Assembly (NCBI GenBank): GCA_946699065.1
Contig: CAMPDV010000058.1
Span: forward strand, 558,001-622,000
Direction: 5' to 3'
From: Loxodes magnus
Taxonomy: Eukaryota > Ciliophora > Karyorelictea > Loxodida > Loxodidae
Length of the DNA stretch: 64,000 nt
Below the pieces are notes generated by a model, which saw only the letters and a program-made list of their open reading frames with translations, was not told the origin of the DNA and searched no databases. The position numbers and the translations under genes are program-made. Position 1 is the stretch's first letter; each line of letters starts with the position of its first letter. Shown here one piece after another: positions 1,725-61,215 of the stretch.

Positions 1725-1854
1725 TTGACATTTACAAACTTTTATCTTTCAACATATTTGTAATATTTATAGTCTAAGCTATATTTATTGCAACTATTCT
1801 CAATATTCTTAAATATTGAAACTATTATATTTTAATTAATTAATTAATTAAGAA

Positions 1855-10565: not shown

Positions 10566-11507
10566 TAAAAAAAATATGGTAGAAGGTTTCAAAAAGGGCT
10601 TCTATACCACCTCTTTCTAAGCTAAAAAGGAAGAGAGGAAGCAGGAAACCTAAATTTCTAAACACCACACGTCATCTTCCAAAACCAAACCTTCTTCTTA
10701 AACCATATAGGAGCAACTCTAAAAAACACCCCCCAGACAACCCTAGAAACACTAACATGCAACAATATCGACTGAGGACCTTCCCAAGAAGCAAAAGATT
10801 AGTAACTTTCAGGCCTAGATTAGGACATTTAACCCCTACATGGGCCTCGGAGATCTCAATAAAGAACAAATCTTAGGAATGACGAAGGAGGAAATGGCTA
10901 AGCTTATCTTAGCATTAACAGGAAAAAATAAAGATCTGGAAAAACAGATTGAAGAACTAGCTTAAGAACAACAAGAGCATTTAGAAGATGAGGAAACCCA
11001 TGCTCCTAGAAACTTAAACCAGGCTGCAATGAATATCAGAATTGACGAATTCGATAGGCAGCTGGAACAATTATACGAATCGAATGAAAATATTCATATC
11101 AAATTGGAAAAATTAGAGACAAGTGTAAAATAATAGGCTATGAAATCCATCCCAATGGAGATCGAATAAGAGAATAATAAGCCAATTGAGCAAACTAAAG
11201 AGAAATATTTTAGGAAAAAATGTTACATCTGCAGGAGAACAGATCACCTATGGAGACGATGCTGGAAGAGAAAGGAGATTTAATAGAAAATATGGAATGG
11301 CCTAACCTAATTTTACCCAACCAGGAATGGAGAAATTTATAAGAAGAAAGCAAGCTATATGAAGAGACAACCATTCCGAAAACTTGACAGTGAAGGGAGG
11401 AGTAGACCACCTAGAGATCAAGTTCCTATTGGTTGGATAGGGAAGTAGGAAGCTTTTAAGTAGACGATCCTTCTTTAACACTTTAATTTAATTTAATTTA
11501 ATTTAAT
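10566..11507 (+). mobile_element. Complete ORF1-only retroelement with 18-bp target-site duplication
   Basis: Bounded by a perfect 18-bp direct repeat TTAACTTTGTATAACTTA (10548-10565 and 11508-11525). It carries one gag-like ORF starting 10 bp inside the 5' end and finishes in an (AATTT)n tail at about 11483-11507. No reverse transcriptase or endonuclease is present. The target-site duplication and simple-repeat tail are hallmarks of target-primed reverse transcription, so the unit is a non-autonomous element presumably moved by a LINE in trans. Its 5' sequence is shared with the element at 61216-62177. Confidence 0.85.
10576..11482 (+). CDS. Gag-like ORF1 protein, coiled coil plus CCHC zinc knuckle
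   Basis: Open from ATG 10576 (MVEGFKKGFYTTSFQAKKEE) to the tail with no in-frame TGA, about 300 residues. After a basic, Pro/Gln-rich N-terminal region (residues 1-88), a second possible start MGLGDLNKEQIL at 10840 leads into a coiled coil (residues about 95-170, e.g. KDLEKQIEELAQEQQEHLED). Then comes the motif IPMEIE and a perfect CX2CX4HX4C knuckle, CYICRRTDHLWRRC (11221-11262), followed by a basic tail. LINE ORF1 proteins of this build bind nucleic acid and form RNPs with element RNA. No TGA closes the frame before the target-site duplication: either the stop is lost or termination depends on the nearby 3' end. Neighbours are AT-rich and unrelated. Confidence 0.8.
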
Positions 11508-16330: not shown

Positions 16331-17092
16331 TTTTCAGGTGGTGAGTTAGGAGAGTGATCCTAGCCTCTTTACTTTAGGTTTTAGAATTCGTGTGTCTATG
16401 TTTTTAGTTAAACTTAAATAAAGCAAATATTCTTATCTAAAATATGGAGATTTTCACTCTTACTTTATGTATTTTATTTTTTTAAATAGAAACTGTAATT
16501 TCCCAGCTTATTCCATATGTCTCTTGAATTAAGTGATATAAGATTGATCTAATTGCAACCTGATAATTTTTAAGATATATTTAATTTCTATTTCTTATCT
16601 TATAAATACAACTTAATCATAAACTCCTTGAGTTCTATTTCAAAATCCTTGAATTTTTTGAGGAAATTTAAAATAAATAATTTCATAAATTTTAAGATTG
16701 AATAATTAAACTATTTTGAATGAAGCAAATTCAGTTTTATCTAAATTGTTCTATCTGAAAATGAAATTAATTTCTATTTTAGATATTTAAAATTATGCAT
16801 CTAATTATCAGATTATATAGCCTTAGATTTTACTTTTTCTAATGTAAATGGAGCATTAATTACAATTCTATTATCTAAAGAGTTTTATTCATTCTTTATC
16901 TTGACTAAATCTTAAGAACAATTATTGAAATAAAAAATTTAAAAATCAAGCTTTATCTCAATCAAATCTCAACTATCTATTTTTATTCCTTTCACTATAA
17001 TTTTAAAATATTAAGATTTATCTTTATGTTCGTTTATTGAATAACCAATTTATAAAAAATAAGGTATAAATAAATAATAAATAAGCAAAAAT
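16331..17092. other. AT-rich stretch, nothing recognised
   Basis: Apart from a short less AT-rich part near 16290-16345 that may belong to the ORF1 remnant, the interval is AT-rich with no supported feature. Confidence 0.4.
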
Positions 17093-17545
17093 GTTTATAG
17101 AATGCGTAGCACCATTTTGGTGCGCAGATCTTTTAATATTAATATGCAAAATTTAGAAAAAAAATTCTCATACTTCTTGTTAAAATTATGGTAGTCCAGT
17201 GAGTCACGTCAGCTTCTCTAAATGGGGAATCTACTTATTAAAGATTATACTCGAATTTTGAATCTTGAATCTTGAATCAAATGCTCCAATTTTTTCTTGA
17301 ATAATATCCAAGTAAGAATTAGTAATTAAGTCATTAGAAGGCCCGTTAGTCAAACGTTCATACTGATAGCGAGAATTCTAAATCAAGTGTGGCTTGCAAT
17401 TTCTGAGCTTGTCCACCCTTCCTCGTGGCATCTAGTGATAGATTACTCGCAATGCAGTAAATTATTTTCCTGGCCCTAGCCTTTCTAGGATGTAGTTGAT
17501 TCCTGCCTTTTTGGACCCGCGAAGAATACTGCTTTAAATTCTGAC
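17093..17545 (-). mobile_element. Chimeric retroelement: ORF1-like 5' end joined to LINE 3' hairpin
   Basis: Minus strand. Its 5' end starts ATG (17543) MSEFKAVFFAGPKRQEST, matching the 5' end of the ORF1 element at 25558-26464 (MLGFKPGFFAAPKKQELT), including CCTAGAAAG-CTAGG. The middle does not continue as ORF1 but matches 18420-18750 (plus). It ends in the shared 3' hairpin (17093-17133: GATCTGCGCACC, loop AAAAT, GGTGCTACGC) and a TTTATTTATT-rich tail (about 17060-17092 on the plus strand). So this unit of about 450 nt combines an ORF1-type start with a LINE-type end. Target-site duplications cannot be judged in the AT-rich flanks. Confidence 0.65.
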
Positions 17546-18094
17546 ATGTTTTATTTATTTAAATATTAATTTATTATTTTAAATTTATAATTTGCAATCA
17601 TTAACATAATCAATAGTCAACTTAGATTTAAAAATTCAAAACTATAATATAAAATATATTAAAGTTACTAATTATTTTTACTAATACTAATACTTTGCTA
17701 AAATGTGATTAGGTTGCAACTTAATTTATTAATTATTTTATTTTGAACATAGCAACTTAATTTTATTTTCTAGGTATAATATTTATTAATAATAGCTTTA
17801 AATTAAAAATATTTGTATATTTATATAAAATGATTAAAAGTAAGTTCTTTTAATTTAAATATATGCTTTATAAATACTTTATAGTTAATTATAATTTTTT
17901 TCCAAGTATATCTAAGTTAATTAAAAGAAGGCTATCAAAAAGTCGCAGATGATAATTATTAAAGTTTTTTTAACTTTTTCTCATCAACATTATGCATTAT
18001 TAATATAATCTTTGTTGAAGAATACTATAACTATTATAACATTAATATTATATATAAAAATAAATAGGTAGCAGCAATCATCCAACTGAAATTT
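17546..18094. other. AT-rich stretch, nothing recognised
   Basis: Very AT-rich spacer between two retroelement fragments of opposite orientation. No supported feature. Confidence 0.45.
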
Positions 18095-22075: not shown

Positions 22076-24430
22076 AAAAAAGGAAATTTAATACTTAGTT
22101 TAAATTATATTAATTAGATTAAAGATAGTTAGATAGTTAAACAATCCTTTAACTTATTAGCTTTTTATTTCTATTAAGCTTATTTGCTTTATAGGAAAAG
22201 ATTGAGAGAAATTAAATGCTTATAAGTATTTTTATTTAATTAGGGGTATCTTCATTGCCCTTATTAGGAGTAATCTACTATTTTAGATTAAAATAGGATG
22301 GAATTAAGCTAATCTAGTCAGCATCTGAAATGATTAAATTATAATCTCATTGAAAATGATTTTTTAAGAAGCTTTGCAAGCTAAGAAAACTCAATTATAA
22401 ATAACTTGCAACTTTAATAAGAAGAATTAAATGTACTTTAGTTGATATAAAATTAATAATTATTATAGGTAAATGATACATAGTCAACTATTAATGCAAC
22501 AAGAATTGCTATATTTAATTTTTCTCTTGTTTCGCTAATTATGTAGACAAATAAAGATAATCATAATCAATTTGTGATGTAAGATTAGCAAAGTAAAGTC
22601 TTAAGCATATCAATTTGCTGATTTAATTGTAAATTTCTAAAAGCTACTTACAATAGTTTATACTCAATAAATAGTAAAAAATAATTTTAAGCAAAAAGAG
22701 ATTAAGAACTATTCTCTCATAATCATTTTAATGTAAATCTAAGTAGATTTATTGCAAATATAAGTAGTGTCTTAATATAAATAATCTCAGATAAATAAGA
22801 GTTTAGAGAAGTTTCATTTTTGATAAAATGTATGGATTTGCTTGTACATTTATTCTAAAACATATAATTAATCACTATTTCATATAATTTATAATTGATA
22901 TCTCTAGTATATTTTAAATAAGGTAAGCTAAATATTATAAAGAAGTTGTTTAAAATAGAAACATAGTACAAAATTGTTTAGATTATATACACAAACATTT
23001 AAAGTTTTTATTTGGATAATCTTTGATGGCACGAAATGATTTTATATTTGAGTATAAATAATTGAAAAAATGTATTTTCATTAGTAATTGTATAGCTAGA
23101 TTATTTGGGTTATGCATATTAGATTATTATTAGCCTTTATTATTTTTTGGTTTATTAATTTAAAATTTAACATAATATAAGAAAAATTAAAAAGACTTAT
23201 CTCAATCACATCTCTTAATAGTTAATGAAATGAAATTTGCTTTTACATAAGAAGATATAAAGTTTAATAAAACTATTTCAATTTCTTAAGATTTATAAAA
23301 TTAATTAAAATTAACAAATCAAGAATCCAAGAAACCATAAAGCAGAAACTTAAATTATGTAAAGCAAGGAAATTAGAAATTATAATCTTATTTTATCTAA
23401 GATAGTTAAGATGCCTCCTATTAATATTATCAAATAAAGAAATAAATATAGTATAAGATGCTAAGGAATTCATATATTTTTAATTAAGGAAAAGGTGAGA
23501 GATAAATAAATTGCATTTTAGCAAAATCAAATCAAAAAGCAAATTACATTATTTCAAATTTTAGCAGACTAGAAATAATTATAGAAAAATAAAATTACTC
23601 AAATCTGATCAGCTAAATAATTTTAAAGAGAAGATAATAATGATTTTAAAGAATTAATAGTGGAGATTCTTATAAACTAAACAATAATTCAGCATATACT
23701 ACCATGGATTTTATCTCTTTAATTATCCTTTGATAAGCATGGATTTTAATATGAATGAAATTCAGTTTTAATTTATTAAAATATGAAATTTAATTACATT
23801 AACAATTCTTAATTACCTAAAGATTCTAAGGATGAAAACATCAATTTAAGCTATTGATAAGGTAAGCTAGATCGTATGAGTTAGGAGATAAATTTACTAA
23901 TTTAATATAAAAATCAGGGAAAATTAAATTTTACATTGATTTTTAAATTAAGATTGTTTTTCGATTTAGAAAAAATTACATAAGAAATCTCTAAAATAAT
24001 TATTAATTAATTTCTTATAAATTTACATTTCATTCTCAAAATATACTTAGATCTTTATGCTGTCAAAATCTTTAAAATAAAAACATCATCAAATGTTTTT
24101 TAATATAAGGTTCAATGATAAAGAAAAAACTATAATAATTGAAAAAATCAAAGGAGAATGGAATATTTTATTCAAAATAAGATATTTTCAGTAAAATTTT
24201 TCTATTATATTTCATATGTTTCAATCTTTTCTTCTGTTTATCTTTAATTTAATCTACTCTTTTTCTTTCTGATTAATTTTTTTTGCTAATATAAAAAATA
24301 AAAAAACTTTAAACTTTTCTATTAAATCTTTTTAATTGGTACTATACTAAGTACTATCAAATTTATTACTCTCAATGGCTGGTATAATCTTAAAAATAAG
24401 CATACTAAAATCATGATGAATTTATCAACT
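22076..24430. other. AT-rich stretch, nothing recognised
   Basis: About 2.3 kb, uniformly AT-rich. I see no gene, structured RNA or repeat that I can support. Confidence 0.45.
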
Positions 24431-24439
24431 ATAAATTCA

Positions 24440-25230
24440 ATTAAAAATTGGGAGTTTTAACCAGTTCCGGCAACAATTTTTTAACGTAGTTGGATTCCAC
24501 GACCACCTTTTCGGAATGGATGACAACTAATTCTCTTTTTCCTTAAAAAGGTCCATTCTATCCTCAATTTCTTTTTGTAAACTTTATTATTAACATATAT
24601 AATATTGCTAGATATCTTCATTTTTTTATTTATTCTTGCTTCTTAATTTTTTTGAAAGTATAACATTATTTGAGTAAATGTCTTGACGATTTACAATAAG
24701 AAATTTTTTTCCAATTTTTTTATTTTGGCTTTTCCAATATAAGTTTTTCTAATTTTTTTATTCTTGGTTATTTTTAGACTTTAAATTACTCTGTTTTCTT
24801 TTTTGTCTGCTTAAGCTTTATCTTTCTTAGATTCATCAATTATTTTTGTTGCTTCCTAAGTTTAGCTGATTATGGTTATTTTTATAATTGATCTTCTGTT
24901 AATTCTTTATTTTGTACTAGTTATTTTCTCAAATAATTAATTTCAAAATATAGAACTTCTATATTTGTCATTAATTCTTTTTATCTCTGAAAGTTTGAAT
25001 ATTATATAATTCTACTAGTCTAAAATTTATTTCAATTTTCAAATTACTCCCATGTTACTCACTTTTGATTTATATTGGTGAAATACTTTCTGAAGCTCCT
25101 TGTAATCGTTTGCCTTAAAAAGAAGAATATTCAAATGACTTTTGATTTTTTTAATTCTCTTCGTGCATTTCTCAGTTAGTTTTAAGATATTTAATTAATT
25201 TCTGATTTCCCGCCAAATTTTAACTTTTTA
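24440..25230 (-). pseudogene. ORF1-only retroelement remnant, family B
   Basis: Minus strand. Lys-rich coiled-coil text leads to a knuckle region KISYCKSSRHLLKQC (around 24667-24711), very close to CYYCKSKWHLLQNC of the intact element at 28737-29569, but the first Cys is Ile. Past the ORF, the 3' end repeats the two hairpins of that element in degraded form (CGTGGAATCC with CTACG, then TTGCCGGAACTGG, 24455-24520). It is a decayed copy of the same family. The 5' limit and target-site duplication were not resolved. Confidence 0.6.
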
Positions 25231-25557
25231 GCATGATGGATTTACTTAAATAATGTTTTAATAATATAAATAAATTATTAAATCCATTAAGAACTATGAT
25301 GCACCTAATTTTTAGTTTATTACTTTAGATAAACTTTCATAATTATAATTTTGATATTTTTTAATTAGATTATTTGCTTCAAAAGTTTAAAATTTATTAT
25401 AATTTAGATATCTACTTTTATAAGTGAAAGAGTAAAAATTAAAAAAAGAATATTTAGAAAATATTCTTAATAGGGTTATTTGGAATTCTTAGGAAAGAAA
25501 ACCAATATAATAAATATAAGATTTGAATTAAATTTATTTCCAAAATTATTAATATAA

Positions 25558-26464
25558 ATACATAATTTAAGTGTTTGGCGTTCTTGGTGGTATTTCAACC
25601 TCCTTCCCGCCAGCCTCTAGATTGCTCTAGAGACTTACTATAAAATTCTGAAAGTCTCTACAATTCTTCTACTTTCCATTCATACTGTCTTTTAATTCTT
25701 CTTTCACCTAGATGCTTGATTTTTTTTTCTTGTAAATTTCCCCAAATTTGTTACAGTATAATCTTTCTCTTGATAGCTTTATTTATTATTGTTTCTTCCT
25801 TTTGTTCTCCAACTAATTCTAATAGTTTCAATATTCTTACTTGAAATTGAGAAATTTCTAGCATCTTTTCCAGAGATGCTTCTAAGAGCTACAATAAGAA
25901 CATATTTTTGCTTGTAGTTTAGGTTTAAATCTTGAGTTATTTTCACCTTCAATAATAATTGGATCATTCCTTTATTTTTTCAATTCCATTTAAAGCTGCA
26001 AATTGTACTGAATTTCTTCTATTTTTCTAATTTACTAATCAGTTTTTTCTGCTTCTATTGTTAGTTTTGAGGTTGACTGCTCTAGTCTTGTGATATATTT
26101 CAAAATGCGCTAAGGTCTCTTTCTTAGGTCATGAGTCTCGATTCTATTTCCTCTGCAAGTTCAAGTCTTTCCATTAACTTCTTATTGTCTTTCTTCAGCT
26201 TTTTTACCTCTTCCTGGAGGCCTAGCACCACTTTAATCAGTTAATCATAGCATATTTACTATTATGTGATGAGATTCGAGATTTCTGAGCGCATAATGTT
26301 CTTAGCCTATTTCATAGGCTTTTCTTCAGAGGTGGGAGATTCATATGATGGGTGACTTTTTTGTTACCCTTTTCCTGGTCCTAGGCTTTCTAGGATATTG
26401 TTAACTCCTACTTTTTAGGAGCCGCGAAGAATCCTGGTTTGAATCCTAACATATTTTTTGATTA
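25558..26464 (-). mobile_element. Complete ORF1-only retroelement with 23-bp target-site duplication
   Basis: A perfect 23-bp direct repeat (25535-25557 and 26465-26487, beginning TATTTCCAAAATTATT) encloses a minus-strand element of 907 bp. It carries only a gag-like ORF1 and no RT. The long perfect duplication points to target-primed insertion and a fairly recent event, although the ORF already has a frame change. The 3' end is AT-rich without an obvious simple repeat. Confidence 0.85.
25680..26452 (-). pseudogene. Gag-like ORF1 with frame change, family D
   Basis: Starts at ATG 26452 (MLGFKPGFFAAPKKQELT). The conserved coiled-coil block reads VVLGLQEEVKKLKKDNKKLM, then EEIESRLMTQERDLSAFWNIS, where Trp is TGA at 26100-26102; the sister at 61216-62177 has TGG there. 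The knuckle CSYCSSQKHLWKRC (CX2CX4HX4C, near 25855-25896) is perfect but lies in another frame, so at least two indels separate N-terminus, coiled coil and knuckle. The protein as built would be broken. The family role is RNA binding within a retrotransposition RNP. Confidence 0.75.
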
Positions 26465-26487
26465 TATTTCCAAAATTATTAATATAA

Positions 26488-27849: not shown

Positions 27850-27864
27850 TTTGTATGTATTTTT

Positions 27865-28177: not shown

Positions 28178-28192
28178 TTTGTATGTATTTTT

Positions 28193-28585: not shown

Positions 28586-28736
28586 AATGAAAGGTTATTT
28601 AATTTGTTTTTTATTGTTTGCTATAAAGGTAAAAAAGCTAGTAATCTTATTTTCAATGATTTAAAAATTAAATAAATAAAATTTTAAAGAATGTTTCCAT
28701 TAAATCAATTATTATATTATAATATACTTTATGTAT

Positions 28737-29569
28737 AAAAAAATGGAATAATCTATTCGCCTTTCCAAAAACCAAATTAAGAACGCAAAAAGGAAAGCTG
28801 CGAAACAAATGCAGAGACAACAACAAGAAGAAGATAAATCAAGTTCCTCCTCTGAAGGAAAAATCATAATCGGAACAATAGAATCGAATCCAGTAAAGGT
28901 ATAAAAATAATCCGAAATATAAATATAGCTTGACCAAATGAAAACAATAATACAAAATTATTAGGAAACAATTTACAACCAAGGGGAAAAAATAAGAGAA
29001 CTAATGAATACTATCGAAGATTAAAATAACGAGCTTCTAATAATTAGACGATAATTGATTTAGAATAATCTAGTCACGGAATAGTAACTATATGAATAAT
29101 CTCAATCGAATTTTAAGCAAGAACAAAATATGATTATCGAAAATGTTTCTACATAAGCAAACGTTTAAGAAAAATAGAATGACTAAAAGATTAATATAGA
29201 TTTAATCAAAAGAATCGATTAACTTGAAAAAAAAGTATTTCTGAAGAGATTCAAGAAAAAACAAGGCAAACAATGCTATTATTGCAAATCAAAGTGACAC
29301 TTATTACAAAATTGCGATTAGTGAAGATAAATTTAGATAAAAGAACAATAAAGAACGTTAAGCATACTCAGCAGACTCTGAATAACCTAAACAGGGATTT
29401 ACAAGAGAAAACTATTCACATAAAAGACAGAAGATCCTCTGTGGTTCCATCCACATAAAAAAATGGCGTGGTATCCATCCACGCTAAAAAAATGGTAGCA
29501 AAAACCTGGTTGAAAATCCAGGGAATGCTAAACTTTAATTACTTTTAGTTTACTATTATTATTATTATT
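28737..29569 (+). mobile_element. Complete ORF1-only retroelement with 16-bp target-site duplication
   Basis: Bounded by a perfect AATATACTTTATGTAT (28721-28736 and 29570-29585). The 833-bp body begins AAAAAA then ATG, encodes one intact ORF1 and ends with two hairpins and an (ATT)n tail (29553-29569). Hairpin 1 is GCGTGG/CCACGC (29466-29484). Hairpin 2 is TAGCA-CCTGG against CCAGG-TGCTA (29496-29530). No RT or endonuclease is present. It is the best-preserved ORF1-only element in the window. Confidence 0.9.
28743..29513 (+). CDS. Intact gag-like ORF1 protein with CCHC knuckle, family B
   Basis: 256 codons from ATG 28743 to TGA 29511-29513, in one frame with TAA/TAG=Gln. It starts six bases into the element. 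The N-terminus is basic (KNQIKNAKRKAAKQMQRQQQ) and is followed by a Ser-rich acidic patch, then a long coiled coil (residues about 60-165, e.g. EKIRELMNTIEDQNNELLI and RIDQLEKKVFLKRFKKK). A perfect CX2CX4HX4C knuckle CYYCKSKWHLLQNC (29277-29318) has its Trp encoded by TGA, and a basic tail follows. The expected role is RNA binding and multimerisation with the element RNA. The terminal TGA stands immediately before the 3' hairpin, fitting a code in which TGA is read as stop near the transcript end. Confidence 0.87.
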
Positions 29570-29585
29570 AATATACTTTATGTAT

Positions 29586-29917: not shown

Positions 29918-30770
29918 TAAAATGGCTTCTAAGAAATAACAGAACTTTGAACAAAACATTTAAACAGGAAAATTCTCTAAAAAATAAAAAAGAGAAATAA
30001 TTACAATGAGTGAAAGTGAGAAATACGATTGATATGACAAACATTAACCACTTGGAAATCCAGAACTAAAAAAACTTCCGACACAAACTCAAATAGAAAT
30101 ATTATCTAAGTCATTAAAAGAGTTTATGTTCAAAAATAGATACCTCACTGATAAAGTAGAAAAATTAGAAAAACTAATAACGTCTTTACTTGAGAAACAA
30201 CATTAATCATCATAAGAAATAAAAAACAAACTGGAACAAAGAATTCTTTAAATTTAATAATATATTCAGGTTACGACGTTTTCGTTTTAACAGAATTAAT
30301 CAGATCCTATGGAAATAGAAAATGAAGCCTCAAATTAAAATAAACAATAAACGTTTATTTAAAATAAGTAGTAAATTTAAATTAAATAAGTGTTACAGGA
30401 ATAATAGGTTAAAAGAAGAATAAAATGCTACGTGTGCAATAAATAACACCAATGAAAATACTGCTACTAACTAAGCGAAATTTAAAGAAAGAATAAATAA
30501 GATATTTTTAGAAAACTATTTAGGATATATCCAACATAAAGCGGAAAAATTTATAGAAAAAAATTCTTTAATTCAAATCTTAATCCTTGGAGAAATAATT
30601 AGGAAAGCTACTTGCAAGATGAAAACTTTCAGAATATTAAAGGATGGTGCGCTAATGAAGTGCAGCACCGCCTAACTAAGCCTAGTAGAAATTCAAGACA
30701 AACTAATGGAGACAAGCTGATAGAATAGGTCAGATGGCTGACTACTAAGGCTTTAATAAAGCTTTTTAAC
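29918..30770 (+). mobile_element. ORF1-only retroelement, family C, copy 1
   Basis: Matches 42110-42972 on the opposite strand almost base for base from TATAAAATGGC to GACTACTAAGGCTTTA, while the flanks beyond do not match. The unit therefore behaves as one mobile element of about 850 bp that starts just before the ORF1 ATG. Its 3' end has hairpins GGTGC/GCACC (30645-30669) and GTCAG/CTGAC (30730-30743). No clear target-site duplication could be fixed because of the AT-rich tail. Confidence 0.75.
29922..30770 (+). CDS. Gag-like ORF1 protein, family C, copy 1
   Basis: Open from ATG 29922 (MASKKQQNFEQNIQTGKF) to the end of the element with no frame break; TGA codons at 30033 and in the knuckle read as Trp. 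Coiled-coil-prone segments SLKEFMFKNRYLTDKVEKLE and QEIKNKLEQ are followed by DPMEIE, the conserved hexad seen before the knuckle in the other ORF1 genes. The knuckle is CYVCNKQHQWKYC (near 30430-30468), with three instead of four residues between the second Cys and His. No TGA closes the frame within the element. The copy at 42110-42970 shares this frame, so it was probably functional recently. Confidence 0.75.
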
Positions 30771-30789
30771 TTTAAACTTTTTTAATGTG

Positions 30790-33605: not shown

Positions 33606-35610
33606 TATTAATTAAGTAATTATTTGAGGCTTACTTTTCCTTTCTTATTTCAATAATTTTAAATTAACTTTAAGAAAAAATCCTAAAGTTAGTTTTATTT
33701 ATTTTTTCTTCAATTTAAAATTCTTACTATAAAGACATAAAAGCAAAATCTACTTATAAAAAGCTTAGGTTACATCGTAGTTAGAATAAAAAGTAAACTA
33801 TACAAGAACTTAAAGAAGGAAATAGTAAGATTAAATAAATAAGCATTTATCTTAAACTAGTTAATTAGTAATAATTAGATAATAATAAAAATATAAAAAC
33901 ACATATCATTATTAATTAATCTTCAGGTTACTTTCTTTAATTGCTTTGCTTTTATTTAATCAAATTAAAATTTAAGATCACCTGTAGAATATTTGACTAA
34001 CATTTATTAAATTAAAAATTAAGAAATTCAAAGTAAAATAAAATAAGAATCTAGAGATCACTATACTAGTAAAGTAGAAAAATAATTGTTTTAAATAATT
34101 AAGAAATAGAAGCTAAATAATAAAGCTAAACTTAGTTAAAAAAATACTTGCAAGAGTTTAGAATAATTAGTAATTTTGTATAATAGTGGATAATAATAGC
34201 CTCTCATACATAAGTATTTTAAAACTTGTTTCCTAATTAATTTGAAGATTCAACTTTAATACATTTAAATAAGCTTACAGGGGTTATAAAATCCAATTAT
34301 TAGAAATAATAAGTTTACTAATATAAAATTAATTAAAAGAAAATCAACAAATACATATTAAATTTTTGAAATCGTTAATCTAAAATAGCAGCATTAGTTA
34401 ATAACAAGGCTAATATCTAAGTAAATATTATAAATATAAAATTAATTAATTTTAATTAATAAAAAATAAAGCAAATTTATACTAAAACTATAAAAGCTTT
34501 TATTAATTTAAAGAAAAATAAACATCATTATTTATATATCTTTTTGAACTTGAAGCTTCTTGAAATAAACTTAACTAATATCTAATAATTTATATAACTT
34601 AAATAGCATGCTTCTTTAAATAAAGTCTATTTTATTCAAAATAATGCTCATATAGCATCACCGTTAGTAAGTTTATGTATCAAATCAGTCTAAATCTTTG
34701 TTGCTTAATTGAAACAAAATTTATTTGTAAATACTAAAATGGATGATACAATTGTAAATAAGTTTGAATACAAATGAGATATAACTTTTACATAGTAAGC
34801 TACAATGAAAAAAGAAGAAATAATAATAAATTAAGAATAAAAGAAATTTAATTAATAAAATAACTTTAGTTATTATACAAAAGCTACTATACAAAATAAT
34901 TAAGGAACTATATTTTCTAAATTTAGTCTATTAATTTTTACAATTAATAAGAAATTATAAAAATCTATAATATATTCATTAACAAATTAAATAAATAATA
35001 AAAATTATTATTATGCATGGTATAAATATATGAATCAAGAATATTATTTAGTTAAACACTTTTATTCTTTAAGCTAAATATATAAAATTTACAATTCGTT
35101 AATAATTACAGTAAATCTAGAAATTAATAAGGTTTTATTTATAGCAAAAACATAATAAAGGTAGTTATGTAAAAGAATATATCTATAGATATATAAGCTT
35201 TTAATGAAATTTCTTAAAATTAAACAGTTAAGCAATTGAATTAGTATATAAGGCTTAAAGATAATTTATTTAAATTGCTTATCTTAAATAAACTAAGCTA
35301 TTTGTAAATTTAGCTTTAATTTTAGAATTAAGATAGTCTTTCAGCAAGATAATCAAAATAAATTGCATTAATTTCTTATAAATTGTTATTTGAGAATTAA
35401 TTGCTGACAGTGCTAATTACCTTTTTGAATTTGTTTAGTTTATTGAAATTAACTTATTATTATAATATCCAAAACAAGTATTATAAAAAGCTAATTCGCG
35501 AGTAAAATAACCTAGATAAATTGATGTATAAGTGTATTAGAGTGCTAATAAAGACTTGTTAAATAGAAAATAAAATCTAAGTAATTTCAAATTAATTTAT
35601 TATATTAAAT
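33606..35610. other. AT-rich stretch, nothing recognised
   Basis: About 2 kb of very AT-rich DNA with no supported feature. Confidence 0.45.
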
Positions 35611-35615
35611 AAAAA

Positions 35616-36450
35616 ATGGCACCTAAGAAATAATAGACCTCTATTAACGAATACTTGAAAAAATAAGAATAATCTAATTTAATTGAAGAATAGCCTTAAT
35701 AAGATAAAGATTAATAATCTAAGGAATCCTTTGCATAATCAGTTCAGCAAAGGAAATCAAATATCCAATATGACTTGAAAATCAAAGATAAAAAATAGAA
35801 AATTTAGAAAACTTACTAGAAAAATTACTGGAATAATTAAACCTATAATTCCCATCCATAGATGAATCATTAAATAAAATCTAATCGCAAATAGTAATTA
35901 AATTGGAATAAATTGATAAATAATTTAACGAAGTCCCTCAAATGTTCCAATTTCATTTTTCTTAAATTGAATATCAAATAAAGCAACTTTAAGAAAAACA
36001 AGAATAATAACAAGTAATAATTTAAAAATTATAAGATTAATAAGATTAATAATAAAATATCCCAATGGAAATCGAATCGGAATTCTAATAATAAGAAATA
36101 AATAAGATTAATTATTATCGCAAAAAGATTCGGTGCTATTTATGCTAGAAAAATAATTGCTGGAAAAAATGCTGGAAGAAACAAGAAATTGAAAAAATTA
36201 ACAAGTAATAAATATTAGACTAACTTTTCAGAATATGACAAACAAGAACAGGATAAGTATACAGAAAGAAATTCTACAACTCAAGAAACCACGATTTTTA
36301 TAAAAATGGAAGAAGAAACTATAACGATAATTAGTGGATGAGGGAGAGACAAGAATGGCGGACTAATGTAGTCCTACGCAGTCCTTTAGTTCAGGAAAGA
36401 GCAGGAACAAAAACAAGTGAACCCTGGAGCTCTTTTCTAAGACTATAAAC
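35616..36450 (+). pseudogene. ORF1-only element, family C relative, one frame change
   Basis: Starts MAPKKQQTSINEYLKKQEQ, like MASKKQQ of the 29922 gene. After one frame change near 35760-35790 it continues KIENLENLLEKLLEQL and IEYQIKQLQEKQEQQQ (coiled coil), IPMEIESEF, and a knuckle-like CYLCQKNNCWKKC near 36132-36170. There Cys replaces the usual His and the spacing is CX2CX4CX3C, so zinc binding could persist as a four-Cys site. The tail is basic and Arg-rich. A GGACT/AGTCC hairpin (36362-36376) lies near the 3' end. It abuts the duplicated flank of SINE copy 3. Confidence 0.6.
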
Positions 36451-36459
36451 TTAATTTTT

Positions 36460-36855
36460 TTTTAATTATTATAAACTAATTAATTCAAAATTTTTACATC
36501 CTAAATTTAAATTTATCCTTTCAGTGAATATTTAATATATTGTGGCTACTACTAATTAAATGACATTAAAATGTTTTTCGATGATATAAAGCTCTATTTA
36601 TCTAAAATTTTTGATTTATTTTTTCAGCTAATTTATCAACGATTTAATGTTCTTATTTTAGTTTAATTATAATTTAATGAGATTATTATTTTTCTTTATG
36701 CTTTTTACTGTTTCTAACTCTTAGTAAAAGCAAATTAAATTAATTTATTATATTTTATTTTATTATTACCTGTTACAATTAAAAAATATTTCATTTCTTA
36801 ATTTTTTTAATTTTTTGATAAAAGTATTTTTCCATCTACCTTTTAATATATAATT
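36460..36855. repeat. Inverted duplicate of 28193-28585
   Basis: Partner of the repeat described at 28193. The duplication continues through the target-site repeat and the whole SINE to about 37183 and stops there, since the second target-site repeat expected beyond the SINE is absent. That places one duplication breakpoint at the SINE 5' edge. Confidence 0.85.
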
Positions 36856-36870
36856 AAAAATACATACAAA

Positions 36871-37183: not shown

Positions 37184-37194
37184 ATTAAATCCTT

Positions 37195-40870: not shown

Positions 40871-42109
40871 GATGTTTTTGTTTTTTATGCAATTGAACGA
40901 ATAGGGATTTCTAATTCTAGATTTTGGTTGTAGATTCTAAATTTTTTGAATAAGCGTAAAAAAATATTTTTTTAATGTTATTACACATAATTTATAAAAT
41001 TTTAAAAATGATACCCCTGTTATATATTTTAATTATAAACTCACTAAAAATAATCAAAAAATTATAAATAAAAAGTTAGATTCATAATTTTCTATATATA
41101 ATATGATTTAAAAAATAATAAATTGTAAACATAAGATTTTATTATTAATTCTTAATCTTTTCATTAATTATTTTATTTATAAATAGAATATAATATTTTC
41201 TTCATTTTCTCTATTTATCTCCAATTTTTAAAATAAAAAATAATAAAAATATTAAAAATTCTTTATGTACATCTCATCTTATAATATTAAATATATTTTA
41301 AAAGAATCAGTTTTGCACAATTTTTATTGGGAAAAATACTTTAATATGTAAATTTTTTGAAAAATGAAAATTTAAAATATTAAGGCAAAAATTGAATATC
41401 TTTAAACTAATAAATTTAAAAGCAATTTTAATTTAATAATTCAACTAAAACTTATTGTAGAATTGCATGAAAACATAAAATAATTTATGAGTAAGTTTTT
41501 ATGTTTAAATATTTCATTCTAATTTAAGGGAATCTTAGGAAGATTAAAAGAAAAGTAGCAATATGTAATTTTTTATAATTATTTATATATAAGAATTTAT
41601 TTAATTTAAATTAATAAAATTTTATTAATTATTATATTTTTATTCAATTTATGCTTTTTCTCTTTTTTATTAATTTTATTTATTCTGATTGAATAAAGCA
41701 AAATATTATACTATTAATTCATCTAGCAAAAATTAAAAAAAGGATATTAAGAACTATTTTTTCAATCGCAATTAAAAATATCGTTCTTTATAATTTTATA
41801 TCATTAATAGATAAGCATATGCAAAAAATATTCGTTATTTTACAACTTAAAATGAATATTTTATACTTTAATTTTAACAACTTCATTATACTAATGAATT
41901 TATTCTATTTCCATTTCATTTAGATTTTAACCTTAAAATCATTAAAAATTTTAATTTTCTAAATTATTTAAATTTTATAAAGTTTAAACTCACCAATATC
42001 TATTAAATATCTATAATTAAAATTTTTAATTAAATTATTAATACGATATAATCAATAAAAATACCAAAAGAATAAGAAGGAATCAAGAAAAACATAAAAT
42101 TAGATAAAA
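40871..42109. other. AT-rich stretch, nothing recognised
   Basis: Uniformly AT-rich, with no supported feature before the family C element. Confidence 0.45.
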
Positions 42110-42972
42110 AAGTTAAAAAAAGTTAAGAAGCTTTGTTAAAGCCTTAGTAGTCAGCCATCTGACCTATTCTATCAGCTTGTCTCCATTAGTTTGTCTTGAA
42201 TTTCTACTAGGCTTAGTTAGGCGGTGCTGCACTTCATTAGCGCACCATCCTTTAATATTCTGAAAGTTTTCATCTTGCATGTAGCGTTCCTAATTATTTC
42301 TCCAAGGATTAAGATTTGAATTAAAGAATTTTTTTCTATAAATTTTTCCGCTTTATGTTGGATATATCCTAAATAATTTTCTAAAAATATCTTATTTATT
42401 CTTTCTTTAAATTTCGCTTAGTTAGTAGCGGTATTTTCATTGGTGTTATTTATTGCACACGTAGCATTTTATTCTTCTTTTAACCTATTATTCCTATAAC
42501 ACTTATTTAATTTAAATTTACTACTTATTTTAAATAAACGTTTACTGTTTATTTTAATTTGAGGCTTCATTTTCTATTTCCATAGGATCTGATTAATTCT
42601 GTTAAAACGAAAATGTCGTAACCTGAATTTATTATTAAATTTAAAGAATTCTTTGTTCCAGTTTGTCTTCTATTTCTTATGATTATTAATATTGTTTCTC
42701 AAGTAAAGACGTTATTAGTTTTTCTAGTTTTTCTACTTTATCAGTGAGGTATCTATTTTTAAACATAAACTCTTTTAATGACTTAGGTAATATTTCTATT
42801 TGAGTTTGTGTCGGAAGTTTTTTTAATTCTGGATTTCCAAGTGGTTAATGTTTGTCATATCAATCGTATTTCTCACTTTCGCTCATTGTAATTATTTCTC
42901 TTTTTTATTTTTTAGAGAATTTTCCTGTTTAAATGTTTTGTTCAAAGTTCTGTTATTTCTTAGAAGCCATTT
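42110..42972 (-). mobile_element. ORF1-only retroelement, family C, copy 2
   Basis: Inverted near-identical copy of 29918-30770. Its ORF1 starts at ATG 42970 (MASKKQQNFEQ), keeps the same frame and the DPMEIE plus CYVCNKQHQWKYC block, and lacks a closing TGA inside the element. The few differences are mostly single substitutions (e.g. the equivalent of QSS becomes QQS-like text near 42680). The flanks differ from copy 1, so the two are separate insertions and not one larger duplication. Confidence 0.75.
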
Positions 42973-45900
42973 TATACATATATTAATTAAATAAATTAAA
43001 TAGGAAAGTTAAATGATTTGTATTTTAACAAAATTGCAAATGCTATATAAATATTTAACACTGAATTAAGTTGTAAATTCCAATTAATAACTTTTTAATT
43101 TCTTATTTATATTTTTATTCCTTAATCATTTAATATACCTAATTTCAGATTTAAAAATATAATTTTTAATTAAAATAAATAAAAATCATCAAATAATTAT
43201 AGCCTCTTAAAATTCTAACTAAATCTAGTATAGAAATTTAAGAAGATCTTTAATTATCTCAAATTAAAATCTTATACTAAATTAAGTTTATACAGACTTT
43301 AGCGTATTGAAGAAAATTTAGATTAATACAACAAAAAAATTATCACAATTTACTTTATTCTGAACAAATTAGAAGAAATAGGATAAGTATAAGCTAATAC
43401 TGAAAAGATTTCGGAAATTTGTAACAAAATACCATCAAATCAATTTATTAAAAAATAAAGAAGAAAATTAGGTTAGATTCTTATTTTTCATAAAGAAGAA
43501 AGATAATTTAAAGCTTTTTTTTTGCGAAAATATATGAAACAAGCAAAAAGAATGCTTAATTTTCTTTAGAAAAAAAATATGGAAGTGCATTTTTATTTCA
43601 CTTGAGACAGAAGGTTATCCGAGAAAAATAATATAAAATTCAAAAGAATATAGAATTACTTGTAATAGCGTGAAATAAAATTAGATAATGTTGGGTCTAA
43701 CCAGAAAAGCGATGCAAAAGAAAATAAGCTGAAAAATTAAATTATAGCTATAGTCGAATGAAATTTGCATTTCTTTTTATGAAAAATATTTATTTTTTAA
43801 TTGGATTAAGTAGTGAAATCATGTATTGTGATATCCCTCTAGTAAAATTAAAAAAATAATTTTTATTACTATTTTTCAAGGTTAATTAATAAAAAAATTA
43901 TTTCTTTATCGAAAGTTTTAAAAGCAAAAATATTTTATTTGTTTTATTTTGGAATATTTTATTCTTTTGTTTTTATCTTAATTTAAAATGAAGAAATTTT
44001 ATTCATTTAAGTAAAAAAATATAAAATAGCTTTCATTTAAAAATATTTGATAAATCTAAAATGTCTTTTAGACTTGTTTAAATTAGTTTTTATTATTTTT
44101 TTAATTTTTAGTAATAAAAAAGTGTTTATTTTTCTTTATAATAATAAGTTACAATAAATAATTTACAAGTATGTAAAATGATTTATATTATATTAATATA
44201 ATTTAAAGCTTTATATTCTAAAATTTAATATTATATTCTAAAAATTCAATACTAAATATGCTAATTTTGATAATTATAGATATAAAACAATTATAATTTA
44301 GTTTGTAATTTATAAAAATTTGATAATTGTTTTTAAGTTTATATCTTATAAAATAATTATTTCTAGAAAAATATATTCCTAATTATTTTTTAGTCCCTAT
44401 TTAATTAAACATTTGTATATATTTATTTTATTAAGATTTTTATTTAATAGAATTAAATATCTCAGCAACGTTCTTCTCTGTATTTTTATTGCAAAAATTG
44501 AATTTTGTAATTATTGGTGTTCTAATAAATTTTATTATTTACTCTTAAATAATAATTTAGACTTAATTCCCTGGTACTTAAAAAGAATTTATGATTACTA
44601 TATCTAAACTTTATTATCATGATGAAGAGGATTTAATAATTATTTTTCTTAAATTTATTAACTTTAAATATTTCATTCATAATAAGTAATTTATGTCTAG
44701 TTATATTTTTAAGGTTCTTTGATGTGATTAAATTTAATATTTTAATTAATTAATTAACTTAATTTATATGATTGTTCTTGTAAAGAATAATTAAGTTCTA
44801 AAGTCTGCAATATAAGCTGTATAATTGTTTAATAATAATACTAATAATATTTTAAAATCACTATAATATTCTCTTTAAGGTTGTTGATTTATTTTTACTA
44901 AATTAGTTTTTCTACAATCATTTTTAATCCAATAAAATTTAGATTATACACTATGCTTTTTATTTTATTTTTGTTAAAATGAAATGTATATAAACTCTGA
45001 CTTGTATAAGTATTCTTAAAATTTATTTATTTTTTAACTTTTTAAATTATATTTATTTCTTTAATTGATATTATTAATAAGAAGCACTTTAACTTTTTTA
45101 GATAAAATCAAACTTTATATCCCTATTTTCTCATTATTCATAATTTAAGATTTTTATTTATCATTTTTTCATTTTTATTTTTTCATTTAATTTAAGAAAA
45201 CCAAATCTTATCATATCTCTTAAGGTATTACAAGCATATGGAAAAATAAATTTAGCTCAATTTAAATTATGGGAGATGGAGATGAGATAAAGCTTAGACA
45301 TAACTTATTTTTACATTTTTAGCTCAAATAAGTTTTTACATTTAGATCTTAAATTTAAAAAATTTTAAGTTAATAAACCTAAAAAATAATTCATCATTAT
45401 CAAATACTACTAATAATACTATTTTATATGAATAAAGAAATTATCTAATTACACAATTATAAATAGTTATAAATGGAAAATAATAATAATAGATTTAAGC
45501 ATCTCTGTGATTTGAGTATTTGGTATATAACTGCTTAATTATGTTGAATTTAATATGTGAATTATGCTTAATACAAAATTTTTCTTCAAACGCTCCAAAT
45601 GCTCCTTGTCAATTTTTTCTTATAAAGGTAATTGAAAAATTTCTTCTTAAAACTTTTCTTTCCCGTTTTAGTAATTAATTGATTCCCCGTTTTTCAACTT
45701 GAGCATTTTCATTTTTCCTTAATTAATTCTTTATGAAGAATTATAAATAATTTATATAATTAGGAGTTAGGTGCTTGAAAGTTCTAATTGATGTAATTTT
45801 AATAATAAAGATGAATGATAATTTTAAATAGAATACACAAAATATAAAATCACTCCATGTCATTTAAGGTTATCGATAATAAAACTCCTAAATGATAGAG

Positions 45901-53820: not shown

Positions 53821-54109
53821 AGTAATTGCAATAAATGCAAGGAATGCAAAATTGATTTATAAGCTGAAATATTATCAAAGGTAGAAGTTAGGAAATTAAT
53901 AATTAATAAAGAAGTAATAAAAATAAAAAAATTTAGGAAAATGGAATAATAATTATTTGCATATCATAGGAAGATTTAGTAAATTATACTAATAGAATTA
54001 TTATTAATAAAAAGAAGAGAAAATAAATGTTTGATAGTTTAAGAAAAAAATTTTAGTACCACCTCCTAAGAGTAGGAAAGTAAGCATGAAGCGTCAATTC
54101 ATACATTCA

Positions 54110-54800
54110 CGTTGTCTTTTAAAAAATAATCTTTTTAAAAATTTAACACTAACTTATCATGGACCAGAAAAAGATACCATGAAAGCCTCTCACCAAATCG
54201 AGACTCCAACATAAGAGGAAAAATCTAGAAAATAGGTTAAGAACATAATGCATCAAGAAGTCGCAGAATTCACCACTGAAAAATTATTTTCTATGAACAG
54301 CTAGTTAAAGTGATGCTAAACATCCAGGAAGAGGTGAAAAGGCTAAAGAAGGACAAAAAAATTAGAAGGGATTTTATATAAACAAGATGAGGTTGATTCA
54401 AGACTTATATCATAGAAAAGGTATTTAAATGCTTTCAGAAGCATTTCATAAGATCAAAGTAATCAATCTTAAAGCTAGCAATAGAAGCAGACAGAAATTG
54501 GAAATAGAATAGAGAAAAAGAAGAAAGTTAGCCAAAATTACAAATTAAAATGAAGAAAAGAGAGCAAAAATGTGACCCAATGTCGATTGAAGAGGAAATA
54601 TAAGAAAACCTTAAAGAAAATGGAGGTAGATGGGGATTAGGAAAAAATGCTTCTATTGTGATAGATCATGGCGTTTATATCGGAAATGTTAGAAATTTTA
54701 GTAGAAAAAAAACTGAACTATTGATTCAAGAAAAACTAAGAAAGGAACAAGGAAAAGCAAGATTAAACTGAATGTATTTCTGTTTGAGTGAATGAATTAT
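54110..54800 (+). pseudogene. Gag-like ORF1 remnant, family D
   Basis: MDQKKIPWKPLTKSRLQH near 54158 matches the upstream part of the 25558-26464 element. VMLNIQEEVKRLKKDKK (54312-54362) matches its coiled coil. A damaged knuckle CFYCDRSWRLYRKC (around 54650-54691) keeps three Cys but has Arg where His should be. Several frame changes separate the blocks. It is a dead ORF1-only copy; its ends and target-site duplication were not resolved. Confidence 0.6.
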
Positions 54801-55001
54801 AATATCAAGAAAGATGCGATAAGATAAGAACAAAAAGAGAGGAAGGAAAACCTGGAAAAGCCCGAGTTCCCAATCTCACTAAAATTGGAGATTTCAAATA
54901 TTTTTATTTAACAGCAGGAAGCATGAATTTCTGTCTTCCTTTGGGGTCAAAATACCTAATAATGGAAAACTTAAATTTAAAATTATTATAAAAAAAACTA
55001 A

Positions 55002-55310: not shown

Positions 55311-55341
55311 TTTAAAATAAATTATATAAATAAATAAATTT

Positions 55342-55382
55342 GATTATAGAGCGCGTAGCACCTCGTTGGTGCGCAGCTCTTT
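55342..55382 (-). other. LINE 3'-terminal hairpin
   Basis: Shared terminal stem-loop immediately after the ORF2 stop. The 5' arm is AGAGC-T-GCG-CACC, the loop AACGA, and the 3' arm GGTG-CTA-CGC-GCTCT, followed by ATAATCAAA and a TTTATTTATTTATA tail. Similar hairpins occur at 17093-17133, 18755-18795, 55002-55042 and 57905-57946, and a shortened one at 18337-18357. By analogy with stringent LINE/SINE pairs it is a candidate recognition site for the element's reverse transcriptase. Confidence 0.75.
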
Positions 55383-55392
55383 AATAAATGTT

Positions 55393-57888
55393 TCAATACA
55401 TGTCTATTTCTTCAAGTAAGCCTTCAGGTAATAAAAATTCTTCTCTTATTAGTTCCATATCTTCATCATTTTCTTCTTCAATATCTCTTGTTCTTCTGTC
55501 TTCTATCTATCTACATTTTATTGATTCTTTGTTACAAGCGTCCATTTTTTTTTTACATACTTTGCTAATTTTCGTTTCTAATTCTTTTCTTCTTAATCAA
55601 GCTTTTATAAACTCATAAAATTTATCCTTTTCCTGCTCTATAATCTTTTCCTATTTCTTTTTTTCATTCAATTTTCTTTTCTAAGTATCCATTTTTTCTT
55701 TTTTCTAATATGTTTTTGATATAATCTTTTATTATCAAGTTAGTTTTAGCTCTTTTCTACTCTTCTTAGGTTCTAATGAATTTTTCGAATTTTGCCGTAC
55801 CTCATATTATATCAAATAGTTTCATTCCTTATCTTTCTACTCCTATTATTCTTAACTTTCTAATACATATTTATCTATTTTCTTTGTATTCTGAGCATTT
55901 TTCTATGATATGCCTTTCGTTTTCTCTTGCATAATTACAGAAAGGGCATTTGCTTGTCGCAACTAGGTGTCTTTCTTTTAAACAATCCTGACTCCCATTA
56001 CATCTCGTTCTTATTCTAAATATGTAGCCTATTTCTTCTTTTCTATTTTTATTGTATCTCAGGTAGTTGGGTGGTCCTATTACATATTCATCAAATCATG
56101 CTTTTCTATACTGTAGAGTTGTTATCATTTACTCCATTCTTTCTATATCTTCTATGTATACTCTATGTTCTCAAATTGCACTATTAATGTTTTTCTTCCC
56201 TTTTTGATTATTATTACCATCATCTATAAATATATTTTTGTCTTCAATTTTTAATTCTAATTTTATTGTCGTGCAATATTGTTCAAAAATAAAGTTCTCT
56301 TCTTTACTTAGGTCGAACATTAATCCATCTGCTGTTTTTCCTTAGTTACCTATTAGTCTGCCTCTTAATCTCAGCGTTTTCTGCCATAGGTAATGTTTAA
56401 ATTTCATAAACTGTAACTCGTATTCTAGCATCTCATTTTACACTTAGAAAGGGGCATCTATGATTGCTCGTAAAGATCTTCTCTATATTATTTCTAATTG
56501 TTCCATCACTTATTTTCCTACAAATTATTTACAATATGGGATCACTTCTGTCCCATAGCTGAATACTGAGCTTACAAACGTTTTTATCATTATTTCTGCA
56601 TTATATGGTGTTAATCCCTTATTCATTGTTATTTTACCCAGTATTCATGTTTACATCTTTTATGCTGCTTCTAGTCTGTTCTCCATGTGTTTTTCAAAGC
56701 TGATGGTCTCTTCTATAATATGCCCTAGGTACTAAAAGGACGTTACTCTTTCGATTCTTAAGTTTCCCACCTCAATAGTATTGCCTATATTTTCTCAGTC
56801 TCTATTTTCTGCTGCTTTTTATATCATTCATTTTGTTTTATCTGCAATTTCCAGTTTGTATTTTTCTGCCCATGAGGTTAAATTTTTGATTACTTCCTCT
56901 AATTATTCTCATTCACTTATTAAGGCTAGGTCATCTGCATATGCAAAACATCCTGCATATATTTCTTGTGTTCATCCCTCTTAGTTTTTAAAGTCTATCG
57001 TAATTCCTAGCTTTTAATCTTCCAAGCTATGGAGAAGTCTTGCTATTATTAAGTTAAATAGTCTTGGCGACGTTATGGTTCCCTGTTTTAGTCCTTTATT
57101 TGTCGCGAATGATTTTGCTATTTATTCATTGATTTTAAGTTTAATTTCTTCTTCACAGTAGAAGTTTGCTAGGAGTTTAATTATCTATTCCGGTACTTTT
57201 AGATCGTTTAGGATTTATCATATATCTTTTCTTTGCACCGAGTAGTATGCTTTTTTAATATCAACAAATATTACGAAAACATCTTTTTTGTTCCGTATTG
57301 ATCATTCCTATACTGTTCTTAGGTTGAAAATTTATAGTGAGCATGATTTTCCTTTTTTAAAGCCATATTAATATTCGCTTTCATCATTATGCAGATATCC
57401 TTATAGTTGCTAGAAAATTCATGCATCTACTATTTTTAAAGCATGATTCAGTAAAGAGATTGGTCTATAATTCATCGGGTTCATCTGTCCTCCTTTTTTG
57501 TATATTAATATTATGTATTATTATTTCATCTCTTAAGGTATTACTCCCTCTTAAATCATCTTAACTATCATTTTACATGTTACTTTTGTTATTTTTTCCC
57601 GCCTGCTAATATTGTGCCTACTTGTATTTCATCAGGTCCTGCTGCTTTTCATTTCGCCAATTAGTCGATGATTTCTCAAATTTCATATTCGTTTACCACT
57701 ATTTATCTCTTGTTTAAGAATTTATTTGGTAGCGTATTATCGCCATCTTCATACAGTTTCTACCATTCATCCCTGAAAGTATTAACATCTTCTTTTAATA
57801 AGGGTACTCATTAATTATTTTTTCTATTAAGTAAGCTTTTTAGTTTCTTCCACATATCTGTTAGACTTCCTTTATTTGCATTGTCCAT
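55393..57888 (-). CDS. LINE ORF2: reverse transcriptase with C-terminal zinc knuckle, endonuclease missing
   Basis: Minus strand from ATG 57888 (MDNANKGSLTDMWKKLKSLL) to TGA 55395-55393 (EGLLEEIDMY-stop). RT motifs in order: KAAGPDEI; MNYRPISLLN; VFVIFVDIKKAYYSV; NKGLKQGTITSPRLFN; the catalytic box FAYADDLALIS (YADD at 56942-56931); WAEKYKLEIADKT; and FQYLGHII. A C-terminal knuckle CPFCNYARENERHIIEKC lies near 55903-55957. Many TGA codons read as Trp. Two frame changes fall in homopolymers (A6 at 57592-57597, A10 at 55545-55554) and may be sequencing errors or real decay. The usual N-terminal endonuclease domain is absent: the ORF starts directly after the tail of another hairpin-ended unit (57905-57946), so this is probably a 5'-truncated LINE. 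Its ORF1 partner is not adjacent. Confidence 0.88.
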
Positions 57889-57904
57889 ATAAATAAATAA
57901 ATTT

Positions 57905-57946
57905 GATTATAGAGCGCGTAGCACTCTCATTGGTGCGCAGCTCTTT
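57905..57946 (-). other. 3'-terminal hairpin of a neighbouring retroelement unit
   Basis: Same stem-loop as 55342-55382, with a loop variant (CACC-AATGAGA-GTG), followed by the same ATAATCAAATTTATTTATTT tail, which runs straight into the ATG of ORF2. It marks the end of a unit whose body should lie at about 57950-58400, and shows that hairpin-ended units are stacked head to tail on the minus strand. Confidence 0.7.
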
Positions 57947-60650: not shown

Positions 60651-61215
60651 ATAATAAATGAGGAAAACTAAAAAAAATTAATATCGAAAAATTATCTAAA
60701 AGTATAAAATTTATAAAGCTATTAATGATAAAGTGGAACATTTTGCCAAAATCATCTATCAAAATTTGGAATATCATTTTAAAATTTGGAGGATTGTATA
60801 ACTGGTGTCAAACATATATTTCAGATATTTTAAAGAGGAGAGTCTGAAGTATTTTAAGATAATCATTACAAGTGACTAAAAATCTTAAAGCATAATGGAA
60901 TAGCTAAAGTCCAAAAATTTTATTAAGATTAATTAACGTTTTTATCTCATTCTAGAGTATATTTAAGATTCTTTAGTAAATTTATTAAAAAATTTACTAG
61001 CTAAAAAAATTACCTTAGAAAAAACGACCAAATAAAAGATAGAAGCATTTGAATTAATAATATTACAGGTATTTTCTTATGTTCACGAGTAAAACATATT
61101 TCTAATTCATGTAGACCCTAATTCAATAGTTTTAGCTTAATAATAAACAATTTAGCAAGTTAAATTCATTAATCTATTTAACAATACTTAGAAAAATTCC
61201 CTAAAAACCTTATTA

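Follow-up and report, generated by a model that had tools for sequence, protein, structure and literature searches.

In the present study, we propose that a group of short elements in the genome of the ciliate Loxodes magnus are very probably non-LTR retroposons that are complete and compact (0.83-0.95 kb), are non-autonomous and use the machinery of LINEs in trans. The common unit consists of a leader of a few nucleotides, one open reading frame (ORF), whose product is a helical, gag-like protein of the CCHC type, and an A+T simple-repeat 3' end, and the ORF for endonuclease (EN) and reverse transcriptase (RT) that marks an autonomous LINE was not found within it. One member, element C, has recently inserted in its entirety at numerous genomic sites, where it is flanked by target-site duplications, and several divergent families with the same layout exist. 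The window analysed here is a stretch of 64,000 nucleotides (C58:558001-622000; GC content 23%) in an assembly of 705,730,643 bases (705.7 Mb) and 7,843 contigs, and its features are collected in Table 1; labels beginning with L denote loci elsewhere in the genome.

Table 1. ORF1-only elements, parts of element C and LINE copies in the window, by window position.
Feature	Position	Strand	Remarks
Element A	10566..11507	+	ATG 10576; (TTTAA)n tail; duplications 10548-10565 and 11508-11525
Element B	25558..26464	-	ATG 26452; frameshifted; duplications 25535-25557 and 26465-26487
Element C	28737..29569	+	Complete 833-bp ORF1-only retroposon; ends set by duplications, genome copies agree
ORF of C	28743..29513	+	256 codons; ATG 28743; three internal TGA as Trp
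Left target-site duplication of C	28721..28736		17 bp counting 28720
Right target-site duplication of C	29570..29585		From 29569 counting tail base
Hairpin CCTGG-TTGAAAAT-CCAGG of C, near 3' end	29505..29522	+	TGA in loop
Element D1	29918..30784	+	Single frame; without convincing duplication
Element D2	42105..42974	-	97% identical to D1, flanks differ; without convincing duplication
Element E	35607..36460	+	Frameshifted; end-to-end relative in L056 (97%)
Element F	61215..62200	-	B-like body, A-like 5' block; frameshifted near end
Element G	54030..54990	+	Decayed B/F relative; bounds approximate
Element H	24420..25250	-	Decayed C relative; bounds approximate
I	17068..17552	-	Apparent chimera: 5' end B-like, 3' hairpin tail of RT1 type; putative single unit
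J	58931..59104	+	Weak ORF1-like fragment, E 2e-4
RT1	55320..57940	-	LINE copy; RVT_1 present; EN and ORF1 not detected
RT2	1..1844	+	3' part of second LINE family, 96% to L061

According to main-text parts of the Loxodes genome paper, TGA is read as Trp or stop in karyorelict ciliates (PMC11441545). In the window, conserved frames contain TAA and TAG throughout, both read as Gln, and TGA is either Trp or stop. The RT1 region contains 13 TGA versus 2 TGG, with TGA at Trp-like positions, and 3-9 in-frame TGA per place were observed at 150 of the 150 RVT_1 places listed genome-wide. A reading of TGA as stop, under which most ORF1 copies looked broken, was dropped given the TGA at Trp-like positions in RT1 and at these RVT_1 places, together with the 17-bp intron of a ZIP gene (see below). 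Since TAA, TAG and TGA are all potentially coding, an open frame is no evidence here, and frames were assessed by their collinearity with those of related elements: A, C, D1 and D2 are collinear with their family in one frame, and B, E, F, G and H shift frame. Element A has no in-frame TGA inside it, and the end of its ORF is therefore unclear. Several other features were observed in the window. An EF-hand kinase-like frame at 46971-48132 (+), without a PDB sequence match, has TGA where the kinase motif carries Trp. Two tRNA-Glu(UUC) genes, at 39259-39332 (-) and 62630-62703 (+), lie inside repeats that are about 90% identical, and a GC-richer block of about 330 bp is present in three copies (5747-6081, 27862-28195 and 36853-37189; 92-95% identical), for which no Rfam match was obtained with the window or with one copy as the query. 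A ZIP transporter gene (Pfam) at 12840-13898 (-) has a 17-bp GT-AG intron, which restores a single frame and was the sole solution among the GT-AG stretches of 14-29 nt tried; a mode of 17 bp is given for Loxodes magnus introns in the same parts of the genome paper (PMC11441545).

The original prediction, made from the letters of the window, described three elements enclosed by perfect duplications of 18, 23 and 16 bp and containing neither RT nor EN, and both statements are confirmed. The direct repeats are exact at the ends of A (18 bp, 10548/11508), B (23 bp, 25535/26465) and C (17 bp, 28720/29569, of which 16 are flush), and no RT or EN domain was detected in the three elements by Pfam in six frames. 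The repeats were compared with 40,000 random placements per element at the same spacing in the window, with A, B and C left out. Repeats as long as those observed did not occur for B (0/40,000; null maximum 15) or C (0/40,000; null maximum 13), and repeats as long as the 18 bp of A occurred in 18 of the 40,000 placements, all from one AT-only 18-mer at 27699/28662. Because AT-only coincidences of 18 bp do occur in the window, at this site and at 35589/36737, the placement at the element ends is the deciding point. The latter pair was considered as a duplication of E and was set aside because its right copy lies inside another repeat, and no clear duplications were found at D1, D2 or the D copy in L040.

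In element C, a 6-nt leader is followed by a single ORF, which encodes a CCHC knuckle, and the element ends in (ATT)n; the TGA at 29511-29513 was taken as the stop of the ORF, leaving 56 nt of the element 3' of this codon. The 3' region of C folds better than 200 of 200 shuffles. Among the eight ORF1-only elements, the 3' end folds better than nearly all shuffles in two (shuffles doing as well: B 3/200, C 0/200), and a conserved 3' hairpin was consequently dropped as a general feature.

A DNA search for C produced 3,087 first-look candidates genome-wide, an unverified count. The best 40 of these candidates, the window copy included, are 831-833 bp long with at most one mismatch; 24 are at full score and the others are 1-2 bases shorter or carry one mismatch. 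All bodies measure 810 bp and show no indels; 31 are identical and 9 carry a single substitution. The tails contain 4-10 ATT units, i.e. a simple-repeat tail of variable length, and an A-rich stretch of variable length separates the duplication from the ATG in the copies of C. The 40 copies correspond to 36 distinct sites, as four repeat a site and are perhaps haplotigs. In the flanks of these copies, target-site duplications of 10-22 bp, with tail bases that match the target counted in the length, were observed at all 36 distinct sites, which agrees with the mobility as complete units put forward in the original prediction. The duplications reach at least 15 bp at 24 of the 36 sites, compared with 34 of 1,260 mismatched flank pairs; the remaining 12 are shorter than 15 bp and individually weak, given that mismatched pairs reach 10 bp in 244 of 1,260 cases (19%). 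The high level of this null reflects matches of the (ATT)n tail to A+T-rich flanks. The sites are dispersed, each with its own duplication, and head-to-tail telomere arrays were not found. No RT was detected with an RT profile around any of the 8 copies with 1.5-kb flanks, the 31 other copies having been fetched with shorter flanks. As the 40 copies are the best-scoring ones, they reveal recent activity, and the age distribution of the family is not readable from them. At one locus (L031, C325:299118-300331), a full copy of C adjoins an inverted partial copy at 73%.

The same layout is seen in other families. Searching the window by tblastn with A, B and C recovered D1, D2, E, F, G and H as well as two weaker fragments, I and J, so that the predicted "seven or more" further solo copies become six to eight, depending on how I and J are counted. 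A profile built from seven copies recovers its own members by construction and gave 0 matches at full model in the reversed window. Whole or nearly whole relatives were found by blastn for D (L040, 96%), E (L056, 97%), F (L042, 72%), B (L040, 88%; L057, 74%; L042, 75%) and C (L052, 68%; L050, 67%), together with a relative of A (L054, 97% from base 143). In L040, the D element at 7228-8090 splits an RT1-like LINE (10000-8089, 7224-6814), which has an uninterrupted form in the window, and the ends of D are thus precise. In L060, another D element begins some 85 bp past the 3' tail of a LINE of the RT1 type; from these two cases, a site preference of D near RT1-type LINEs is possible.

The association with RT was surveyed in 19 places of 10 kb each (190 kb), chosen blind by contig number and round coordinates. 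This sample contains 14 ORF1-type loci by the window ORF1 profile and 5 RT loci by the LINE profile, a ratio that is rough because the profiles are not equally sensitive. At 0 of the 14 ORF1-type loci was an RT found on the same strand in the first 1 kb downstream, in agreement with the expectation that an ORF2 does not follow; at greater distances, an RT fragment lies 3.6 kb downstream of the ORF1-type locus in L050, and the C-like element in L045 is followed by an EN fragment 2.0 kb downstream. The window itself has two RT regions by the LINE profile, as originally reported, and one RVT_1 region by Pfam. The further claim that the ORF1-only form dominates has its support in the 14 versus 5 loci of the 190-kb sample; first-look RT counts genome-wide are large (RVT_1, 3,403; RT2 family, 8,524), and we therefore make no claim that ORF1-only elements outnumber RT copies in the whole genome.

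Selection on the ORF was examined in pairs of elements. Between C and its relative in L050 (67% identical DNA), which are collinear over the ORF and both have C-type ends, the protein identity is 0.54 over 245 codons in a protein-guided alignment that favours this value somewhat, compared with a mean of 0.370 and a maximum of 0.437 when the same changes are redistributed (0/1,000 reach the observed value). The differences by codon position are 89, 55 and 125, and dN/dS is estimated at about 0.08, dS being close to saturation; the L050 relative has no TGA at the position of the C stop. In the F-B pair, from a nucleotide alignment, the differences by codon position are 22, 15 and 51, and non-synonymous changes number 41 versus 60 expected (0/3,000); F-G has 28 versus 39.5 expected (0/3,000). 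For both pairs the true frame is the lowest of six, and one antisense frame comes next (0.004 and 0.015) because its third position mirrors the sense third position. B-G gave a P of 0.0065 in one frame, with B frameshifted. D1-E gave a P of 0.025 and is not decisive, as a wrong frame was lower at 0.0055. The P values for C-H (0.065), D1-C (0.076) and A-F (0.61) give no indication of selection, and A-B has too few sites. No selection was detected in the closer pairs, including D1-D2 (11 non-synonymous changes versus 11.9 expected), E-L056 (dN/dS 1.0, with null values as high in 757/1,000), D1-L040 (248/1,000), D2-L040 (348/1,000) and A-L054 (368/1,000). The codon comparisons of C with its L050 relative and among B, F and G thus demonstrate purifying selection on the protein in these diverged pairs and not in the closer ones. 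The pattern is compatible with source elements being under selection and copies decaying neutrally once inserted.

The protein encoded by these elements matched no Pfam family above cut-off. The alignment of seven copies has a common knuckle region and an IYxKK motif in most copies; A, B and C have the exact CX2CX4HX4C spacing, which in D is shorter by one residue, and the His at this place is missing in E. No protein homologue of A was found at E up to 0.01, and none was found with the seven-sequence alignment as the query at E up to 1, a weak negative since the protein database may hold few sequences in this code. The AlphaFold model of D1 is poor (pTM 0.25) except for a long helix at 54-126. 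Accordingly, of the gag-like description in the original prediction, the CCHC knuckle is seen in A, B and C, and the "coiled coil" would correspond to the D1 helix in this poor model.

Three LINE loci were read for comparison, of which L059 and L060 contain ORF1, EN and RT, and L061, the representative of RT2, contains EN and RT. The ORF1 pieces in L059 and L060 are homologues (31% over 204 aa, 5e-34), each with a knuckle. No similarity was found between them and A, C or D1 (best E 0.75), and this LINE type of ORF1 had no match at E up to 1e-5 in the 254 kb of sample and window. Conversely, the ORF1-only profile matched none of the three LINEs, and its sole match in L060 is the D element past the LINE 3' end. 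In L061, neither type of ORF1 was matched, with 4.4 kb upstream of the RT included. No LINE with a 3' end common to A-F was convincing among these three loci, and the donor may belong to another family; a short likeness between the 3' ends of C and L059 was seen by eye and was not counted. RT1 is a possible type of donor. Short repeats at 17068-17138, 18345-18383, 18751-18809, 54975-55051 and 57887-57960 also carry the hairpin tail that ends the RT1 LINE at its 3' side; some of these look SINE-like, and two pairs in the window have bodies unrelated to RT1, and those in the sample were not told from truncated LINE ends. In addition, RVT_1 recurs about every 2.5 kb at C5131:5395-26349 and C20:2028-7877, as would be seen with RT-bearing units arranged in tandem.

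Herein, we propose the following course of events. The element RNA would be transcribed, the encoded protein would bind this RNA, and the EN and RT of co-resident LINEs, acting in trans, would insert it through target-primed reverse transcription, a process established for non-LTR elements. The indications of this process are the duplications, the simple-repeat tails and the intact 5' starts; elements without an RT of their own must use one in trans, and trans-mobilisation is plausible because short repeats carry the RT1 LINE 3' hairpin at several places. That the protein is selected suggests that it may act on the RNA encoding it. The original prediction of a LINE parasite that borrows RT is supported by the duplication-bounded sites of C, the lack of downstream RT in the sample and the selection; neither of the two contrary outcomes named with it, copies being mostly pieces of longer elements or duplications failing elsewhere in the genome, was observed, and we infer rather than observe that a particular LINE is the lender.

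Several other explanations were weighed against this reading. The elements might derive from longer ORF1+ORF2 LINEs as fragments or by internal deletion, and incomplete LINE pieces (RT1 and RT2) are common. The ORF starts of A and L060 both carry FKKGFYTTS, and A and L060 share 26 bp at 88% (E 0.001), a match that chance hits in this comparison equal or exceed; the position at the ORF start is the one suggestive feature. However, the 36 duplication-bounded sites hold the same C unit, diverged copies agree in their ends, the ORF1 of L059 and L060 is dissimilar and the profile finds nothing in L061, so that this origin is disfavoured for C and is highly improbable overall. An origin as retrocopies (processed pseudogenes) of host zinc-knuckle mRNAs would account for the very short leader and for the 56 nt after the stop of C, close to the values given for Loxodes magnus 3'-UTRs (mean 53, median 41) in main-text parts of the genome paper (PMC11441545). 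Such retrocopies would be expected to have neither (ATT)n or (TTTAA)n tails in place of poly(A), nor numerous near-identical copies sharing a 3' end, nor multiple families with the same layout and selection between diverged families, and we consider this explanation very unlikely.

It might also be argued that the elements are SINE-like RNAs in which the ORF is incidental. The short repeats with the RT1 LINE 3' hairpin, in the window and the sample, do suggest trans-mobilisation, and close pairs of elements appear neutral. Nevertheless, a SINE would have no protein under selection, whereas C-L050, F-B and F-G display protein-level selection and the knuckle region and IYxKK are common to most families, making an incidental ORF highly improbable. 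A rather unlikely extension is a split system, in which LINEs with no knuckle-type ORF1 that can be recognised, such as the RT2 family, take the RNA-binding protein from ORF1-only elements and lend RT in return; if true, these would be separately mobile, mutually dependent halves and not a host and its parasite.

Under the preferred reading, non-autonomous retroposons mobilised by LINEs in trans, a ciliate genome holds several tiny gag-only families beside abundant LINEs, one of them with many near-identical copies. This makes testable the question of why an element that borrows its RT keeps a selected gag-like protein, and whether this protein serves its own RNA only. If it also serves LINEs, the boundary between parasite and partner shifts.

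The closest known kinds are HeT-A and HAL1, which are similar in working, and defining features of each are lacking here. HAL1 ends in poly(A), whereas C ends in (ATT)n. HAL1 (half-L1) of mammals is non-autonomous, encodes only ORF1p and has arisen several times, as described in parts of PMC5753468. The encoding of ORF1 alone is the point of likeness; HAL1 is an L1 derivative with the L1 ORF1p, whereas the protein here is unlike the ORF1 of L059 and L060 and gave no match in L061, so that homology to the ORF1 of a partner LINE was not found in the three LINE loci examined. The REP LINEs of Tetrahymena, another ciliate, likewise have an ORF1 with a potential zinc finger, but they also have an ORF2 with RT and endonuclease (parts of PMC6564038), in contrast to the ORF1 alone of the present elements. 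In main-text parts of the Loxodes genome paper (PMC11441545), the ORF1-only class is not mentioned. In the portions of the literature covered, ORF1-only elements lead to HAL1, and the gag-only non-LTR kinds found are HeT-A and HAL1. HeT-A, a telomeric non-LTR retrotransposon of Drosophila, encodes a Gag protein without RT and needs RT from elsewhere (parts of PMC5537684), as the present elements would. It builds telomeres, whereas C is 0.83 kb long with an (ATT)n end and occupies 36 dispersed sites with duplications. HeT-A is at least as close to these elements as HAL1, the sole comparison drawn in the original prediction.
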